From Limibacillus sp. (GTDB taxonomy: Bacteria > Pseudomonadota > Alphaproteobacteria > Kiloniellales > CECT-8803), in NCBI GenBank assembly GCA_037379885.1, contig JARRJC010000001.1, positions 1 through 64,000 of the forward strand: a stretch of DNA of 64,000 nt, given 5' to 3'. Positions 1 to 10,636 of this stretch are shown here, one piece after another. The translations under genes and the position numbers were made by a program. Each line of letters begins with the position of its first letter. Within the stretch, counting starts at the first letter, position 1. The notes under the pieces are model-generated. The model was given only the letters and a program-made list of their open reading frames with translations. It was not told the DNA's origin and did no database searches.

Positions 1-94
1 GCTTTTTGTCGGTGAATGTCTTTGAGACAGGCGGGTGTCCTTTACGTCGGACCTGCACCTGCCACTTGCTTTTGAGCTGTCGAATTGAAGCCAT
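1..94 (-). CDS. Tyrosine-type site-specific integrase, N-terminal fragment (runs off the left edge)
   Basis: Reading leftwards from an ATG at 94, the first 31 codons encode MASIRQLKSKWQVQVRRKGH followed by PPVSKTFTDKK. The pattern of a short basic lead, WQVQVRRKG and SKTFTDKK matches the Arm-type DNA-binding N-terminus of phage and island integrases, the strand that reads arm-type sites. A GGGGG stretch lies about seven bases upstream of the ATG. The gene starts about 100 bp from the 3' end of tRNA-Val and points away from it, the classic arrangement of an integrative element at a tRNA. Its local base composition is clearly less GC-rich than the core genes. The catalytic domain (R-H-R-Y) lies outside the window, so intactness cannot be judged. 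Confidence 0.8.
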   Translation of the reverse strand, partial: MASIRQLKSKWQVQVRRKGHPPVSKTFTDKK

Positions 95-197
95 CGATGC
101 ACCCCCAGTGTGATCAGAGTGTGAATCACTGAGGTATCCATCGCTTGTTGGGGCAGGCCTCTGATCAGCTAAGTGCTTGATCTTGTGAGGCAAAAGA
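95..197. other. Probable attachment/arm region between integrase and tRNA-Val
   Basis: This gap holds two adjacent 11-bp near-identical direct repeats, AGTGTGATCAG at 107-117 and AGTGTGAATCA at 118-128, and the palindrome CTGATCAG at 161-168 that shares the TGATCAG core. Repeats of this kind next to an integrase start are typical of arm-type or excisionase sites. The att core itself would be expected in the 3' part of the tRNA (about 198-240). The second att copy lies outside the window, so its limits cannot be fixed. This is inferred from position and repeats only. Confidence 0.45.
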
Positions 198-272
198 TGG
201 TGGGCGCGGCTGGGATTGAACCAGCGACCCCTACGATGTCAACGTAGTGCTCTCCCGCTGAGCTACGCGCCC
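198..272 (-). tRNA. tRNA-Val(GAC)
   Basis: Read on the minus strand this folds as a complete cloverleaf. The acceptor strands are GGGCGCG and CGCGCCC, followed by discriminator A and an encoded CCA. The anticodon stem CTACG/CGTAG encloses the loop TTGACAT, giving anticodon GAC (valine). The T arm carries GGTTCAATCCC. Its 3' end faces the integrase gene, so it is the probable integration site of the element to the left. Confidence 0.95.
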
Positions 273-610
273 GCCTTGGATGGGACCGGTGCCTTTTCGG
301 GGCTTCGGTCGAAGCGGTTGTCCTGCGGCGGTTCGGGATGGCTGCCAGGGCGGACCGTTTGGGACCTGCCGGGGCATCTCCGCCGCGAGGTGGGAGGCGA
401 ATAGCATCTGCCGACGGACTTTTCAAGAGGCCTTGGACCGCCCCTTCCCCACCGCGTCCCCACCGCGTCCCCGCCGCCTCCCTGCGCCCCTTTCCATGCC
501 GGGGCGGCGGCCCGACCCGCTCCGGCTTAGAAGCCGCTGTTGGCTTGCCGTGGGGCGCGGAAGCGGCTACCTAGGATGGTGGCCGACTTTCTGCTGGAGG
601 AACCCGCCTC
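273..610. other. Intergenic region with an 11-bp tandem repeat
   Basis: No gene is supported in this 338-base gap. It contains about three tandem copies of an 11-bp unit (CCACCGCGTCC at 449-459 and 460-470, and a degenerate copy at 471-481). A weak minus-strand promoter-like pair (TTGAAA at 421-426, TATTCG at 398-403, 17-bp spacing) could drive the tRNA, but it would leave a leader of more than 100 nt, so it is not called as a promoter. Confidence 0.5.
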
Positions 611-1648
611 TTGGACGAACTCTTCGCTCATCCCCAGGCCCGCGCCGCGCTGGCCCAGGCGCGCGGCGCTACGGGCGAGACCCTGCGCGCTGGCAAGGCG
701 CACGAGGGGGATGGCCGGGCGGCGGAGTCCGGGCAGAGCGGGCGGCAGGCCTTCTCCATCGCCGAGCCCAAGCGGCAGTCGGTGCCGCTGGTCTTCGCCT
801 CGCCGCACAGCGGGCGGGACTATCCAGCGGACTTCGTGGCGCGCTCGCGGCTCGACCCCGCCGGCCTGCGCCGGTCGGAGGACTGCTTCGTCGACCAGCT
901 CTATTCCTTCGCCCCCAGGCTGACCGGCGCGGAGAGCGGCGCGCCGCTGCTCTGCGCCCTCTTCCCGCGCGCCTACGTCGACCCCAACCGGGAGCCCTAT
1001 GAGCTCGACCCCGCCATGTTCGAGGAGTCGCTGCCCGAGTACGTCAACACGCGCTCGCCCCGCGTCGCCGCCGGGCTCGGCACGGTGGCGCGCGTGGTCG
1101 CGGGCGGCGCGGAGATCTACCGCGGCAAGCTGACCTTCGAGGAGGTGCGCCGGCGCATCGAGCTCACCTACTGGCCCTATCACGAGGCGCTGCGCGGCCT
1201 GCTGCAACAGACCCGGGAGAGCTTCGGCGGCTGCCTGCTGCTGGACTGCCACTCCATGCCCTCCGGCGTGGCCGCGACCGTGGCCTCGAACGAGATGGGC
1301 AAGCGGAACAGCGGCATGCCGGCAAGCGGCGCGTCAGGCCCGGCCTTCGTGCTGGGCGACTGCCACGGCAGCGCCTGCGACCGGCGCATCGTCGAGGCGG
1401 CCGAGAGCTTTCTGAAAGGGGCCGGCTACCGCGTCGCGCGCAACCAGCCCTACGCCGGCGGCTTCATCACGCGCCACTACGGGCGCCCCGGCGAGGCGAT
1501 CCATGCCCTGCAGATCGAGATCAACCGCGCCCTCTACATGAACGAGCGGCGGCTGGAGCCCAATGACGGCTTCAAGGCGCTGCAAGACGACCTGAAGGCG
1601 CTCTCGGCCAATCTGGCGGAGGTCTGCGGGTCCCTCTTTTCGAAGTAG
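611..1648 (+). CDS. N-formylglutamate amidohydrolase family protein
   Basis: Predicted to hydrolyse N-formyl-L-glutamate to formate and glutamate, the last step of one histidine degradation route. Family hallmarks are SPHSGR (residues 64-69), the AYVDPNREPYELDP block (about 121-134), DCHSMPSG (212-219), a DCHG block near 256, and the C-terminal GGFITRHYG...ALQIEINR segment. The start is TTG at 611 with GGAGG ten bases upstream; the first about 50 residues are poorly conserved, so a later start is possible. No other hut genes are nearby. Its acetyltransferase neighbour follows by 10 bases, suggesting co-transcription. Whether formylglutamate or another N-formyl amino acid is the real substrate cannot be told from sequence. 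Confidence 0.85.
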   Translation: MDELFAHPQARAALAQARGATGETLRAGKAHEGDGRAAESGQSGRQAFSIAEPKRQSVPLVFASPHSGRDYPADFVARSRLDPAGLRRSEDCFVDQLYSFAPRLTGAESGAPLLCALFPRAYVDPNREPYELDPAMFEESLPEYVNTRSPRVAAGLGTVARVVAGGAEIYRGKLTFEEVRRRIELTYWPYHEALRGLLQQTRESFGGCLLLDCHSMPSGVAATVASNEMGKRNSGMPASGASGPAFVLGDCHGSACDRRIVEAAESFLKGAGYRVARNQPYAGGFITRHYGRPGEAIHALQIEINRALYMNERRLEPNDGFKALQDDLKALSANLAEVCGSLFSK

Positions 1649-1658
1649 GCCGCGCGGC

Positions 1659-2216
1659 ATGGAGAGCGAAAACCAGCCAGACTTCATTCTGCGCGACGCC
1701 GCGCCGGGGGACCTGCCGGCGCTGCAGGCGATCTACGCCCATCATGTGCGCACCGGCCTCGCCTCCTTCGAGCTGGAGCCGCCGGACCTCGCCGAGTTCA
1801 CGCGCCGCTTCGAGGCGCTGAAGGCCGAGGGCCTGCCCTACTACCTGGCCGAGGCGCAGGACGGCACCCCGCTTGGCTACGCCTATGCCGGGCGCTATCG
1901 CCCCCGGCCCGGCTACCGCTTCTCGTTGGAGGACTCGATCTACGTGGCGCCGGAGGCCCAGGGGCGCGGCGTCGGCAAGGCGCTCCTGGAGGCCTTGATC
2001 GAGACCGCGACGGCCATGGGATACCGCAAGATGGTGGCGATCATCGGCGACAGCGCCAACGCCGCCTCCATCGGCCTGCACGCCAGCCACGGCTTTCTGC
2101 TGGCCGGGACGCTTCGGTCGGTTGGCTTCAAGCATGGGCGCTGGGTGGACTCGGTCCTGATGGAGCGTTTCCTGGGCGAGGGCGACAGCAGCCTGCCTCA
2201 GGAAATTTCCCGCTAA
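1659..2216 (+). CDS. GNAT N-acetyltransferase, phosphinothricin/methionine sulfone (Pat/MnaT) type
   Basis: A 185-residue GNAT enzyme transferring acetyl from acetyl-CoA to the amino group of a small amino acid-like substrate. The acetyl-CoA loop is QGRGVG at 101-106, preceded by SIYVAPEA. The C-terminal KHGRWVDSVLMER segment, with EDSIYV, is characteristic of the Pat/MnaT/YncA group (phosphinothricin, methionine sulfone or sulfoximine acetylation) rather than ribosomal protein acetyltransferases. It starts 10 bases after the amidohydrolase. The physiological substrate is not predictable; resistance to natural glutamine synthetase inhibitors is the usual assignment for this family. Confidence 0.88.
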   Translation: MESENQPDFILRDAAPGDLPALQAIYAHHVRTGLASFELEPPDLAEFTRRFEALKAEGLPYYLAEAQDGTPLGYAYAGRYRPRPGYRFSLEDSIYVAPEAQGRGVGKALLEALIETATAMGYRKMVAIIGDSANAASIGLHASHGFLLAGTLRSVGFKHGRWVDSVLMERFLGEGDSSLPQEISR

Positions 2217-2237
2217 ATCACTGGAAACACTCTGAAA

Positions 2238-2337
2238 AGAAAGGGGCCGCGCTCGTAAGCGCGGCCCGAGTTTAGGGAGGAAACGCCCAAGAAGTGCGTT
2301 TACGTCCAGGACGAGGCTTGCTCGTCCCTTTCGCACT
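2238..2337 (-). ncRNA. Candidate small regulatory RNA with promoter and intrinsic terminator
   Basis: On the minus strand the interval has a transcription-unit layout with no ORF. The 5' end folds into an outer stem AGTGCG/CGCACT (2332-2337 with 2293-2298) around a strong hairpin GGACGAG/CTCGTCC (2321-2327 with 2309-2315). A single-stranded linker carries CCTCCC (2275-2280), complementary to Shine-Dalgarno sequences. The 3' end is a perfect 9-bp GC stem (GGGCCGCGC/GCGCGGCCC, 2244-2267) followed by CTTTCTTTT. A 17-bp-spaced promoter lies just upstream. Anti-SD linkers resemble the CCUCC-motif small RNAs known in alphaproteobacteria, but no family can be assigned. Confidence 0.5.
2244..2267. 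terminator. Intrinsic terminator hairpin, possibly bidirectional
   Basis: Perfect 9-bp stem GGGCCGCGC/GCGCGGCCC with a six-base loop. On the minus strand it is followed by CTTTCTTTT, giving a good terminator for the candidate small RNA. On the plus strand the tail GAGTTTAG is weaker but could still end the acetyltransferase transcript. Confidence 0.7.
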
Positions 2338-2341
2338 GCAC

Positions 2342-2370
2342 AATCTAAGGAGCATTTTTGTGCGCCGCAA
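2342..2370 (-). promoter_or_regulatory. Candidate sigma-70 promoter of the small RNA
   Basis: The minus strand reads TTGCGG (2365-2370), a 17-base spacer, then TAGATT (2342-2347). Predicted initiation falls at about 2337, the first base of the outer stem of the candidate RNA. The surrounding 2340-2470 segment is strikingly AT-rich for this genome. Confidence 0.45.
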
Positions 2371-2468
2371 CAGAAAAATTCTAATCCACTGTGTTTTCTT
2401 ATATTTTCAGAATCTTGACGATTTTTTATCCACAAGTTTGGAAAGCTCTGTTTTTGCCTAAAAAAGCG

Positions 2469-2858
2469 TCATTTGTCGGCCGCGAGCAGCAAGGCCTCGA
2501 TCTCCTCGGCGTTCTTCGGCCAGACAGCCCAGTCGCGCGCGGCAAGCCCCCAGCGGTTGCCCGCCTTGGGGTCGGCGCCCGCCGCCAGCAGCCGCTTGAC
2601 CACTTCCGCCTGTCCCCGCGCGGCGGCCAGCATCAAGGCCGAGTTCCCGGCATCGTCGGTCTTGTCGACCGCCGCGCCCTCGGCCAGCAGGAACTCCACG
2701 AGCTCCAGCCGTCCGGCCCCGGCGGCGAGGTGAAGCAGGGTCGCGCCGTGGCGGTCGCAGCCCTCGACCTCCGCGCCGGTCTTGAGGGCGGCGGCGATGG
2801 TTTCCTTGTCGCCGCGCTGGGCGGCGCGCAGCAGCGCGGGGTCGGCTTTCTTGGCCAT
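2469..2858 (-). CDS. Small ankyrin-repeat protein
   Basis: A 129-residue protein made almost wholly of ankyrin repeats, which mediate protein-protein contacts. Clear repeat cores are GATLLHLAAGAGRLELVEFL (about 38-57) and the following NSALMLAAARGQAEVVKRLL (about 72-91), with partial capping repeats either side (LRAAQRGDKETIAAALK near the N-terminus and a degenerate NRWGLAARDWA at the C-terminus). No signal peptide or membrane segment is present, so it is probably cytoplasmic. It is a lone minus-strand gene, divergent from the downstream-oriented DMT transporter. Its partner is unknown. Confidence 0.85.
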   Translation of the reverse strand: MAKKADPALLRAAQRGDKETIAAALKTGAEVEGCDRHGATLLHLAAGAGRLELVEFLLAEGAAVDKTDDAGNSALMLAAARGQAEVVKRLLAAGADPKAGNRWGLAARDWAVWPKNAEEIEALLLAADK

Positions 2859-3000
2859 GAATCTCAGTTTCCTCTATCCAAGCCGTCTTGTCGGCGGGGT
2901 CTTTCGCGCAAGATGCGCCGGGCGCTAAAGCCGGTCAAGCATGGCTCCCATCCCGACTTTGCACCTTGGATGCGCCGGCAAGAATGTTAAGAGAGGCGCC

Positions 3001-3927
3001 ATGACCGGGGAGCGACAAGAAAGGGAACCGCTTGAGAACGTCGCCAATGGCGAGACGCTGGCGCGCGTCCTGCTTTTCGTAACCCCCTCCTTCTTCGCCT
3101 CCAACATGCTGATCGCCCGCGCGACGGCGGAGCTGGTGCCGCCGGTCGCGCTTGCCTTCGGCCGCTGGGCGCTGGCGCTGGCGATCCTGCTGGCGCTGCT
3201 CGGACCCTCTGTCTGGCGCGCGCGCCGCGCGATCGCGGGGGAGGCGGCGGAGCTGGCCCTGCTGGGCGCGCTGGGCATGGGGGTCTGCGGCGCCTTCGTC
3301 TACATCGGGGCCGACAGCACGACGGCCACCAACATCGGCATGATCTATGCGACCTCGCCGGTCATGATCATTCTTCTGGCCCGCGCCTTCTATGGCGAAC
3401 GGCTGACTCCCGGGCGCTGGCTGGGGGTGTTCCTGGCGCTGGCCGGCATGATGGCGATCGTGTTCCGCGGCCAGGTTGAGACGCTCCTGACCCTGGACCT
3501 GACCCGGGGCGATCTCTGGATCATGGCCTCGGCCTTTTCCTGGGCGCTCTATTCGATCCTGCTGAAGCACCGCCCCACCCGGCTTGAACCCAAGGTCCGC
3601 TTTGCCGCGATCATGCTGTTTGGAACCCTGGTGCTGGCGCCCTTCACGCTCCTGGAGGCGCTGCTGTTCGAAGCCCCTGAGATCAACGCGGTCTCCGTCG
3701 GCGCGGTGGTCTTCCTGGCTCTGGTGCCGGCGCTCGGCGCCTATGGCAGCTATGGCTACGTGCAGCGCCACCTGGGCGCGTCCAAGACCGGACTGATGCT
3801 CTACCTAAGCCCCGTCTACACGGCTGTGCTCGCCTATTTCCTGCTGGCGGAGGCCTTGCAGGGCTATCACCTGCTGGGCGCCGCCCTGGTGCTGCCCGGC
3901 CTCTGGCTGGCGACCCGGAGGGACTAG
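3001..3927 (+). CDS. EamA/DMT-family transporter
   Basis: A 308-residue inner-membrane protein with about ten hydrophobic helices in two EamA halves, as in drug/metabolite transporters that export amino acids or other small molecules. The second half contains FSWALYSILLKH and the typical LSPVYTAVLAYFLLAEALQ segment. The ATG at 3001 is preferred over the in-frame ATG at 2941 because GAGAGG lies five bases upstream and the extra 20 residues are not membrane-like. Its stop overlaps the stop of the convergent marR gene by a few bases. Substrate unknown. Confidence 0.88.
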   Translation: MTGERQEREPLENVANGETLARVLLFVTPSFFASNMLIARATAELVPPVALAFGRWALALAILLALLGPSVWRARRAIAGEAAELALLGALGMGVCGAFVYIGADSTTATNIGMIYATSPVMIILLARAFYGERLTPGRWLGVFLALAGMMAIVFRGQVETLLTLDLTRGDLWIMASAFSWALYSILLKHRPTRLEPKVRFAAIMLFGTLVLAPFTLLEALLFEAPEINAVSVGAVVFLALVPALGAYGSYGYVQRHLGASKTGLMLYLSPVYTAVLAYFLLAEALQGYHLLGAALVLPGLWLATRRD

Positions 3928-4456
3928 AGCGAGGCGGCGGCGCGCGCCGCCTGATCGTAGAGTCCCGAGAAGGCGCGCAGCAGTTCCGCCGCCTCCCCCG
4001 TCTCCTCCGCCAGCGCCTCGCGCCGTCCACCCGCGAAGGCCTGGAAGACCTCCAAAAGACAGGCCTCGCGCAGCTCGCGGTAGCGCTTGCAGGCCTTCAG
4101 GCCCTCGGCGCTCGCGCTCCAGAAGGTCTCCTTGCCCTGCCGCGCGCCTTCCACCAGGCCCAGGCGCTGCAGCTTCTTCAGCGCATAGGTGACGGTGTGG
4201 GTGTCCTCGATGTTCAAGACAAAGCAGATGTCGCCCTGCCGCTTGGGCCGGTCCCGGTGATTGACAGAATGCAGGACCAGAACATCGGTGGCCGAAAGCT
4301 CCGGCCAGCCCGCCGCGGCCATGCAGCGCACGATCCAGCGGTTGAAGGCGTTGCCCGCGGTGATCAGGCCGAACTCCAGCTCGCTCAGCTCCGCCGCCTC
4401 CTCCGCGACCAGGTGGGAGGATCCGACGATGCGCGTGCCGCCGCTCTGACGCTTAC

Positions 4457-4460
<4 letters not shown>
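3924..4460 (-). CDS. MarR-like winged-helix regulator coupled to the hydantoinase gene
   Basis: A 178-residue protein with a winged helix-turn-helix (about residues 55-110: [20 protein letters not shown], then [20 protein letters not shown]) and flanking helices like the MarR dimerisation region. The [12 protein letters not shown] start is typical of a MarR subgroup found beside hydantoinase or amidase genes. Its start overlaps the hydantoinase stop by four bases, so the two are translationally coupled. It is therefore the natural candidate to bind the 14-bp palindrome in the operon promoter (8130-8143). The ligand is unknown, possibly the oxoproline or hydantoin-like substrate. Confidence 0.85.
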
Positions 4461-8107
<3,647 letters not shown>

Positions 8108-8129
8108 GGCGAAAACCCTTACACTAATA

Positions 8130-8143
8130 ATTTATCGATAAAT
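8130..8143. promoter_or_regulatory. Palindromic operator upstream of the hydantoinase-marR operon
   Basis: ATTTATCGATAAAT is a perfect 14-bp palindrome, AT-rich in an otherwise GC-rich region. It begins about 10 bases downstream of the predicted -10 box, over the expected transcription start, where a bound repressor would block initiation. MarR proteins bind such short AT-rich palindromes. The link to the operon's own MarR is inferred. Confidence 0.6.
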
Positions 8144-8152
8144 CGTTGGCAT

Positions 8153-8181
8153 TATCTACCATAGCCCTGCGTCCCCTGCAA
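8153..8181 (-). promoter_or_regulatory. Candidate promoter of the hydantoinase-marR operon
   Basis: On the minus strand TTGCAG (8176-8181) and TAGATA (8153-8158) are spaced by 17 bases. An overlapping GATAAT also fits the -10. Predicted start is near 8146, adjoining the palindrome. A ribosome site AAGGG lies about ten bases before the ATG at 8107. Confidence 0.5.
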
Positions 8182-8257
8182 GGCTGCCCCCAAGGGGGCT
8201 TCCAAGCACGCGAACGGTCTTGTCGCGATACCGCTTTCCGTGGAATAAGCATCGGTC

Positions 8258-9004
8258 ATGAGCATCTGGGGAAAGATCGTGGGAGGCGCGGCGGGCTTTG
8301 CCGTCGGCGGGCCTTTGGGCGCCATTCTGGGCGCCGTGGCGGGCCATGCCGTGGACAAGATGTCCGACGACAGCCGCGATCCGGAGAAGGCCGAGAAGGC
8401 GGACGATCCGACCCGGAGGATCGCTTTCACCATCGCCGTCATCGTCCTGGGCGCGAAGATGGCCAAGGCCGACGGGCGCGTGACCAAGGAGGAGATCGCC
8501 GCCTTCAAGCAGATCTTCCACGTGCCGCCCGAAGAGATGAAGAACGTCGGCAAGCTGTTCGATCAGGCGCGGCGCGACGCCCGCGGCTACGAGCCCTACG
8601 CCAAACAGATCGCGCGGCTGTTCCGCGACCGCCCTGCGGTCCTTGAGGAACTTCTGGGCGGGCTCTTCCACATCGCCAAGGCCGACGGGCGCGTGAGCGA
8701 AGAGGAGTTGGCCTATCTTGAAGACGTCGCCCAGATCTTCGGGCTCAGCGAGCAGGACTGGCTGCGCGTCAAGAGCGCCAACATGGGCGCCGACGCGCAG
8801 GACCCCTACGCCATCCTCGGCGTTGACCACAACGCCAGCGACGAGGAGGTCAAGGCCGCCTACCGCAAGCTGATCCGGGAGAACCACCCGGACAAGCTGG
8901 TGGCCGAGGGCCTGCCGCAGGAATTCATCGATCTCGCCAACGAGAAGATGGCCGCGATCAACGCGGCCTACGACCGGCTGCGCAAGCTGCGCGGCCTTTC
9001 CTGA
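8258..9004 (+). CDS. djlA: DjlA-like membrane-anchored J-domain cochaperone
   Basis: A 248-residue protein with the DjlA architecture. The N-terminal glycine-zipper membrane segment WGKIVGGAAGFAVGGPLGAI (4-23) ends in GHAVDK. A TerB domain (about 55-170) contains two acidic KADGRV motifs (70-75 and 141-146). The C-terminal J domain (about 182-245) has the essential HPD at 210-212. DjlA stimulates DnaK ATPase at the inner membrane and in Escherichia coli modulates the Rcs envelope stress pathway. Here it stands alone, divergent from the hydantoinase operon, followed by an EamA transporter. A second TerB gene lies 1.7 kb downstream. Confidence 0.9.
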   Translation: MSIWGKIVGGAAGFAVGGPLGAILGAVAGHAVDKMSDDSRDPEKAEKADDPTRRIAFTIAVIVLGAKMAKADGRVTKEEIAAFKQIFHVPPEEMKNVGKLFDQARRDARGYEPYAKQIARLFRDRPAVLEELLGGLFHIAKADGRVSEEELAYLEDVAQIFGLSEQDWLRVKSANMGADAQDPYAILGVDHNASDEEVKAAYRKLIRENHPDKLVAEGLPQEFIDLANEKMAAINAAYDRLRKLRGLS

Positions 9005-9060
9005 CTCGTCTTCGCAAGGGCGCGGCCAAGCCAAGGGCCGGGCCTTCGTAAAGGAGCCCC

Positions 9061-9945
9061 ATGTTTTCGATCCGCCCGCTCCACCTTGGGCTCATTCTCA
9101 TGGTCCTCTGCTTCTGGGGCTTCAACTTCGCCATGGTGAAGGTGGGCTTGCGCGACCTGCCGCCTTTCATGCTGACCAGTCTGCGCTTCTTCGCCGTGGC
9201 GCTGCTGCTGACCCCCTTCGTCAAGCCGCCGCGCGGGCGCTGGCGCGACATGCTGGTGATCTCGATGCTGCTGGGCGTGGCCCACTTCGCCCTGATGTTC
9301 AACGGCCTGACCGGCCTCGACGCCTCGACGGCGGCCATCTCGATCCAGTTGCAGGTGCCCTTCGCCTCGCTGCTGGCCGCCATCTTCATGAAGGACAAGC
9401 TCGGCTGGCGGCGGGCTCTCGGTATGCTGATCGCCTTTGCCGGGGTGGTGATCATCGCGGGCGAGCCGCGCCTGGACGGGCAGTATGTCTACCTCGGCAT
9501 GGTGATCTCCGCCGCCTGCCTGTGGGCCGTCGCGAACCTCGTCATCAAGATGCAAAGGCCCATGGACGGCATGACGCTGCTCGCCTGGATGTCGGTCTTC
9601 GCCTCGCCCTGCCTGCTCGCCCTCTCTTTCGTTTTCGAGGACAACCAGTGGGAGGCGCTCTCCAACATCGGCTTCGACGGGATTTCCGCGGTTGTCTATC
9701 AGTCGCTCTTCGTGGTCGTGATCGGCTACGGCGTCTGGTACCACCTGCTGCGCCAATATTCGCTCAACGTTATGATGCCCTTCACGCTGCTGCTGCCGCC
9801 GATCGGCGTCCTGTCCGGCGTCGTCGTGCTCGGCGAGCGCTTGAGCATCACCTTCCTGATCGGCGCCGCCGTGACCGTCGTCGGCGTGGCGATTATCCTG
9901 ATCCGGCGGCCAACGACCGCCTCGCCGGAGATCAAGGGCACATGA
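9061..9945 (+). CDS. EamA/DMT-family transporter (YedA/amino acid exporter type)
   Basis: A 294-residue polytopic inner-membrane protein with ten predicted helices arranged as two EamA domains. It opens with LILMVLCFWGFNFAMVKVGL, the usual first helix. The second domain carries YQSLFVVVIGYGVWYHLL and the pre-C-terminal PPIGVLSGVVVLGERLS motif. This pattern is common among exporters such as EamA (O-acetylserine/cysteine), but the substrate is not defined. AAAGGAG lies seven bases before the start. It precedes the amidase gene by seven bases and may be co-transcribed with it. Confidence 0.88.
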   Translation: MFSIRPLHLGLILMVLCFWGFNFAMVKVGLRDLPPFMLTSLRFFAVALLLTPFVKPPRGRWRDMLVISMLLGVAHFALMFNGLTGLDASTAAISIQLQVPFASLLAAIFMKDKLGWRRALGMLIAFAGVVIIAGEPRLDGQYVYLGMVISAACLWAVANLVIKMQRPMDGMTLLAWMSVFASPCLLALSFVFEDNQWEALSNIGFDGISAVVYQSLFVVVIGYGVWYHLLRQYSLNVMMPFTLLLPPIGVLSGVVVLGERLSITFLIGAAVTVVGVAIILIRRPTTASPEIKGT

Positions 9946-9952
9946 GGGCCCC

Positions 9953-10636
9953 ATGAGGATCATCGACCATCCCTCCCCCAACTGCGAGCCCCGGCCCGAG
10001 GGTCTGCGCCCGGATATCCTGCTGCTCCACTACACCGGCATGAAGAGCGGGCCGGAGGCGCTGGCGCGCCTCTGCGCCCCCGAGGCGAAGGTGAGCGCGC
10101 ACTATCTGATCGAGGAGGACGGCCGCGTCTTCGCGCTGGTGCCGGAGGCGGCGCGCGCCTGGCACGCCGGGATCGCCTCCTGGGAGGGCGAGAGCGACAT
10201 CAACAGCCGCTCCATCGGCATCGAACTGGTCAACCCCGGCCACGAGTTCGGCTACCGCCCCTTCCCCGATGCTCAGATCGAAAGCCTGATCGCGCTGTCG
10301 CAAGCGATCCTGGAGCGCCACGCGATCGCGCCGCAGCGGGTCCTGGGCCATTCCGACGTCGCACCGCTCAGGAAGGAAGATCCGGGCGAGCTTTTCCCCT
10401 GGGAGAGACTCGCCGGGGCCGGCATCGGGCTCTGGAGCGAGGCGGAAAGAAAGGACCCCCGTCCCCTCTCGCAGCTCCTGGCGCTGCTCGGCTACGGCTT
10501 TCTGCGCGAAGACGAAGGCGCCGTCATCCGCGCCTTTCAGCGCCATTGGCTGCCCGGCCAGCTGACCGGCGCGCCGGACGAGCGCACGAAGCGGCGGGCC
10601 GCCGCGCTGCTGGCGCTGATCGAATCCGGAGCGTGA
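9953..10636 (+). CDS. AmpD/AmiD-like N-acetylmuramoyl-L-alanine amidase
   Basis: A 227-residue zinc amidase that cleaves the lactyl-amide bond between MurNAc (or anhydroMurNAc) and L-alanine. The Amidase_2 domain carries HYTG with H26, WHAGIASW, GIELVNPG with the catalytic-type E91, and LGHSDVAPLRKEDPG giving H133, K141 and D143. H26, H133 and D143 match the AmpD zinc ligands. The C-terminal about 50 residues form a peptidoglycan-binding domain (LGYGFLREDEGAVIRAFQRHW). No signal peptide or lipobox is seen, which argues for cytosolic muropeptide recycling, AmpD-like, rather than the outer-membrane lipoprotein AmiD. Confidence 0.9.
   Translation: MRIIDHPSPNCEPRPEGLRPDILLLHYTGMKSGPEALARLCAPEAKVSAHYLIEEDGRVFALVPEAARAWHAGIASWEGESDINSRSIGIELVNPGHEFGYRPFPDAQIESLIALSQAILERHAIAPQRVLGHSDVAPLRKEDPGELFPWERLAGAGIGLWSEAERKDPRPLSQLLALLGYGFLREDEGAVIRAFQRHWLPGQLTGAPDERTKRRAAALLALIESGA

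Follow-up and report, generated by a model that had tools for sequence, protein, structure and literature searches.

Integrative elements at tRNA-Val genes have been described in other Alphaproteobacteria: the RAGE elements of Rickettsia are bounded on one side by tRNA-Val(GAC) (PMC6300072), and the symbiosis ICEs of Bradyrhizobium lie at tRNA-Val (PMC9239051). Our locus shares with them an alphaproteobacterial element at tRNA-Val, although those are large conjugative elements, whereas the 197 bp known of the one described here show no conjugation genes. A second parallel comes from the KplE1-type prophages, in which int reads away from attL at the tRNA 3' end (PMC2951348). In KplE1, attL overlaps the int promoter and includes arm sites, which provides a precedent for autoregulation (PMC2951348). 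The present locus likewise has attL overlapping the upstream region of int, with its candidate arm sites just before int; the element and the arm sequence differ, the KplE1 target is argW, and autoregulation was tested in KplE1. Arm sites themselves have been studied in mycobacteriophages, which carry paired arm repeats whose sequence is proposed to be set by integrase positions 17 and 19 (PMC3203893). In the attP of the cluster K phages the paired 11-bp arm-type repeats, which resemble those found here, flank the core, and these phages differ in infecting another host group and, for the K1 phages, in using a tmRNA target. In ICEMlSymR7A, five TGKTGGTATC sites are required (PMC11963761).

The closest known systems are small islands of Rhizobium sp. 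Root1203, Aquamicrobium zhengzhouense, Mesorhizobium microcysteis, Nitrospirillum amazonense and two MAGs (L295-L300). They have in common with our locus the same N-terminal type of integrase, in the same direction and about 80-106 bp past tRNA-Val, and ahead of int they carry an 11-bp repeat pair, which in Mesorhizobium microcysteis takes a variant form. These islands are complete, with both att sites and cargo, whereas the present element ends after 31 codons. The DNA analysed here (the window, 64,000 nucleotides of Limibacillus sp.) is the start of contig C1 (134,460 bp), from its base 1, in an assembly of 128 contigs and 3.1 Mb. We conclude that the left end of this contig very likely represents attL of an integrative element, most likely a small genomic island or a prophage-like element, that inserted at the tRNA-Val(GAC) 3' end. 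The boundary is distinct and fairly well preserved, and as a mobile-element edge it is of an ordinary kind.

The probable element junction at tRNA-Val(GAC)

A complete tRNA-Val(GAC), the presumed integration target, was found by ARAGORN at 198-272 on the minus strand; the gene on its 5' side is the same all through the order. This neighbour, at 611..1648 on the plus strand, is an N-formylglutamate amidohydrolase-like gene, whose score of 101.5 bits against NCBIfam TIGR02017 lies under the equivalog cut-off of 278.75. The tRNA and the amidohydrolase-like gene are present in nearly all of the 58 related genomes searched, adjoining one another wherever both matches were listed. Judged by this gene order, they are conserved core across the order, and the sequence-only reading was right to place the tRNA on the core side. 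Gene content 3' of the tRNA varies among the relatives inspected, and there was no clean empty site among them. The drop in composition which that reading had noted is also real: GC content is 0.51 over bases 1-197, against a mean of 0.67 (sd 0.044) for 197-bp stretches elsewhere in the window, 0.3% of which are equally low.

On the minus strand, a frame running from an ATG at 94 to base 2 (MASIRQLKSKWQVQVRRKGHPPVSKTFTDKK) is stop-free to the contig end and comprises 31 codons, which we assign to the arm-binding N-terminus of a tyrosine integrase truncated by the contig end (2..94). The ATG lies 104 bases past the 3' end of the tRNA on the same strand, leaving a gap of 103 bp; the arrangement of a complete tRNA-Val and a 31-codon integrase start first read from the letters is confirmed by ARAGORN and by the integrase matches. 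The ORF is 48-57% identical to annotated site-specific integrases with 30 of its 31 residues aligned, and 45-62% identical over about 30 residues to the integrase N-termini of many genomes and phages, with Met aligned to Met. In other members of the class it matches the start of tyrosine recombinases of 314-339 aa; class-wide, the matching frames are mostly 310-340 codons long, and phage integrases match as well. Both relatives tested (n=2) have the PF00589 (Phage_integrase) catalytic domain, while the full-length relatives share R...HDLRHEAISR...GH...RYTH motifs and, used as a profile, match XerC/XerD-like, HP1 and lambda integrase structures. The 31 residues alone gave no match to the Pfam and PHROGs integrase models and two weak matches to PHROGs of unknown function. 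Because they match no Pfam family, the assignment rests on these homologues, by which the ORF is an integrase N-terminus.

The leader between tRNA and integrase (95..197, minus strand, 103 bp, about 51% GC) is the element side of the putative attL. The RNA fold of positions 1-200 gave z = -2.2. No sigma-70-like promoter was found, which we counted against the reading as an attL junction. The putative att core, in its attL copy, occupies 196..242, from the anticodon loop to just beyond the tRNA 3' end. Since its second copy is absent from the assembly, we infer this core from related genomes: the same stretch is what two of them (G004 and G018) duplicate, over 47-50 bp.

The spacing between tRNA and integrase recurs in relatives. 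Several of those with the same N-terminus lie about 77-141 bp past tRNA-Val(GAC) or tRNA-Val(CAC), in the same direction; among them the integrase starts about 83-102 bp past tRNA-Val(GAC) at two loci (L065, L073) and about 120 bp past tRNA-Val(CAC) at a third (L064). A wider set comprised 160 loci, 127 of which had at least 60 bp of upstream DNA. Within 350 bp of the integrase, these 127 had 45 tRNAs in the same direction and 7 in the opposite one. The gap to the integrase was 67-154 bp for the 45 (14 of them tRNA-Val), and the 103 bp found in the window is typical of relatives.

A repeat pair of constant period before int

Aligning the leader of the window with those of three relatives revealed a shared direct repeat, which in the window reads TTCACAC-N4-ATCACAC (109..124, minus strand; period 11 bp). 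The pattern TCACAN6TCACA has a single match in the 64 kb, at 109-124, where 0.04 would be expected. It is present in 9 of 17 leaders including that of the window, with no other spacing from 0 to 19, and arose 5 times in 34,000 shuffles. We also applied a test free of any given sequence, which looks in the last 60 bp ahead of int for any 8-base stretch that recurs 11 bp further on with 7 or more bases matching. Among non-redundant genome loci 52 of 74 had such a pair, where 0.9 would be expected, and among viral loci 18 of 37, where 0.44 would be; the window carries one with 7 of 8 bases matching. At other lags from 5 to 25 the excess was small or absent (5 against 0.5 at lag 14). The repeated word varies between integrases while the period is constant; the words include GTCACA, GGCACA, GGGACA, GCTCCA, GGTACA and GACGCA, among others.

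Complete elements allow the pair to be followed to the far end. Of 13 genomes in which such an integrase lies at tRNA-Val, 7 carry the tRNA 3' end twice on a single contig, both times on the same strand. One of these (G447) was excluded from the complete set, as its pair at tRNA-Val(CAC) comes from another element with a different integrase at the far end. The six complete elements measure 2.9, 6.7, 7.9, 8.4, 12.0 and 16.7 kb, the one of 6.7 kb being that of Aquamicrobium zhengzhouense, and all are flanked by direct repeats (36-96 bp). Among the cargo genes are those for a type I restriction-modification system in G446, for an AbiTii protein in G445 and, in G454, for a protein matching PADLOC PDC-S60. 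In five of the six the pair is limited to the two ends, in the same orientation: between tRNA and int at the near end, and about 87-170 bp before the far repeat at the other. The sixth, in Mesorhizobium microcysteis, carries a variant at both ends (GCTGGTCCCACTCTGGCTCCAG / CTGGTCCCACTCTGGCTCCAG).

On this pattern the repeat pair very probably represents the arm-type binding sites of the integrase, and the window thus holds a nearly complete attL. We suggest, tentatively and with somewhat more doubt than confidence, that the integrase N-terminus of roughly 30 residues may determine the variable word, which would then be a legible code for arm sites. Were this so, both ends of unmarked islands could be found from sequence alone. 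The pair of fixed period is in itself a means to locate the far end of such elements, and it opens the question of how the integrase N-terminus selects its arm sites. As a separate observation among the wider set of loci (L112-L271), words other than GTCACA seem to accompany N-termini whose QW is shifted in position.

The rest of the element and alternative readings

We looked for a second att site as near matches of at least 21 bp genome-wide, and as shorter ones in about 0.64 Mb of readable sequence. In the readable assembly (12 contigs under 3 kb being N), this recovered only the tRNA itself and the tRNA-Val(CAC) on contig C88, the two tRNA-Val genes of the genome sharing at least 25 bp. 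Likewise, with PF00589 and a full-length relative as queries, the catalytic half of the integrase was absent from the readable assembly, the same 12 contigs being N. As the contig ends at base 1, these absences are missing data and not a refutation. The earlier proposal of a tRNA-integrated element therefore stands in part: the place and direction are standard and have parallels with both att sites, while the R-H-R-Y residues and the second copy of the tRNA end that it pointed to are not in the readable assembly. Its further claim that everything to the left is mobile cargo was overstated, given that complete relatives of the element are just 2.9-16.7 kb long and that on the same side of the tRNA the nearest relative (G001) has about 48 kb of ordinary-looking genes, up to a convergent tRNA-Val(CAC).

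Other candidates turned up in the course of the search. The one repeat-pair match among the small contigs (C69, about 3745) we put down to chance, as it lies in ordinary 59-66% GC with no tRNA fragment near. Four other recombinases were found, on C104 and C29 (both XerC/D-like by eye), C49 and C40, none of them the missing half; that on C49 is a 394-residue integrase and that on C40 an ORF of 213-217 residues. As owner of the tRNA-Val(CAC) site the C49 integrase is unsupported, since C49 is without the TACGGAC repeats seen past tRNA-Val(CAC). The C49 integrase (L108, about 1-10000) sits in a half-contig of 50-58% GC that gives way to 67% GC from about 8-10 kb, and this contig is likely another island edge in the same genome. 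On C40 (16,353-18,729; L109) the integrase-domain ORF, there of 213 residues, has beside it, where the contig ends, an ORF that by eye resembles a serine recombinase, which makes this a candidate for another mobile region.

The failure to find the remainder of the integrase in the readable assembly would also be expected if attL and an integrase fragment had been left at the tRNA after the rest was deleted, and relatives with early stops do exist (89 codons in L073, 125 in L074 and 36 in L076). We regard such a decayed remnant as unlikely: the frame has no stop up to the contig's final base, the repeat pair and its spacing are preserved, and a contig that stops inside a gene is what one expects from an assembly break. 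Less probable still is a chimeric contig end, in which the first 197 bases would come from another strain or organism and be joined on at the tRNA sequence. Such sequences are frequent joining points, the genome has two tRNA-Val genes with at least 25 bp in common, and GC falls sharply here; but the gap length, the direction and the repeat pair are exactly as in real single-genome elements, and the first bases of the window overlap no other contig checked. A chance ORF beside the tRNA, with no element at all, would accord with the lack of any family model recognising the 31 residues, yet it is in practice refuted, because the N-terminus matches integrases and full tyrosine recombinases Met on Met across many genomes and phages, and by the independent repeat pair.

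Proposed mechanism and other elements at tRNA-Val

For an element integrated at tRNA-Val(GAC), the tRNA, the integrase N-terminus and the repeat pair are seen in the window itself, with like anatomy in complete relatives. An intact catalytic domain, a far att site and cargo would belong to the part of the element missing from the contig. In the mechanism we propose, recombination between attP and attB by the tyrosine integrase would take place in the 3' half of the tRNA gene. The tRNA would be kept whole at attL because the element supplies its own copy of the 3' half, and the displaced fragment would become attR. The N-terminus of the integrase would hold the pair at 109-124 while the missing C-terminal domains cut the core. 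With the candidate arm pair some 15-30 bp ahead of the int start codon, autoregulation is plausible, the bound integrase probably repressing its own gene. By itself the junction explains a contig break and marks one more integration site.

Within the order, extra tRNA 3' fragments mark other elements: G004 has one of 47 bp about 49 kb away, G018 has one of about 50 bp that lies on a different contig, and in three more genomes (G011, G022, G027) the copies are shorter or imperfect. These copies show tRNA-Val(GAC) to be a repeatedly used entry site in the order. The G004 element of about 49 kb is at the orthologous tRNA-Val(GAC) (G004:C1 3,770,600-3,820,011; L042, L090, L091) and, immediately beyond the tRNA, has genes that look by eye like those of type I restriction-modification.

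In G001, tRNA-Val(GAC) and tRNA-Val(CAC) point towards each other across 48 kb of ordinary-looking genes. The two have nearly identical 3' ends (G001:C3 319,800-368,150; L083-L085), and past the CAC copy lies an islet of about 2 kb and 39% GC with a 354-residue ORF that is DUF262-type-like by eye. Mapped to our own contigs, this G001 interval was dispersed over C47, C63, C11 and C18, and a right flank could not be assigned without ambiguity. On contig C88, tRNA-Val(CAC) has the 5' neighbours that it has in G001, and the contig ends after only 120 bp of 45% GC DNA past the tRNA. This end of C88 is probably the junction of a second element, whose integrase would be of another type, and the C88 end and the C1 start may be two sides of one gap. 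Past the tRNA-Val(CAC) there is an 8-bp direct repeat, GTACGGAC, with a 12-bp period (G000:C88 4782-4977; L089).
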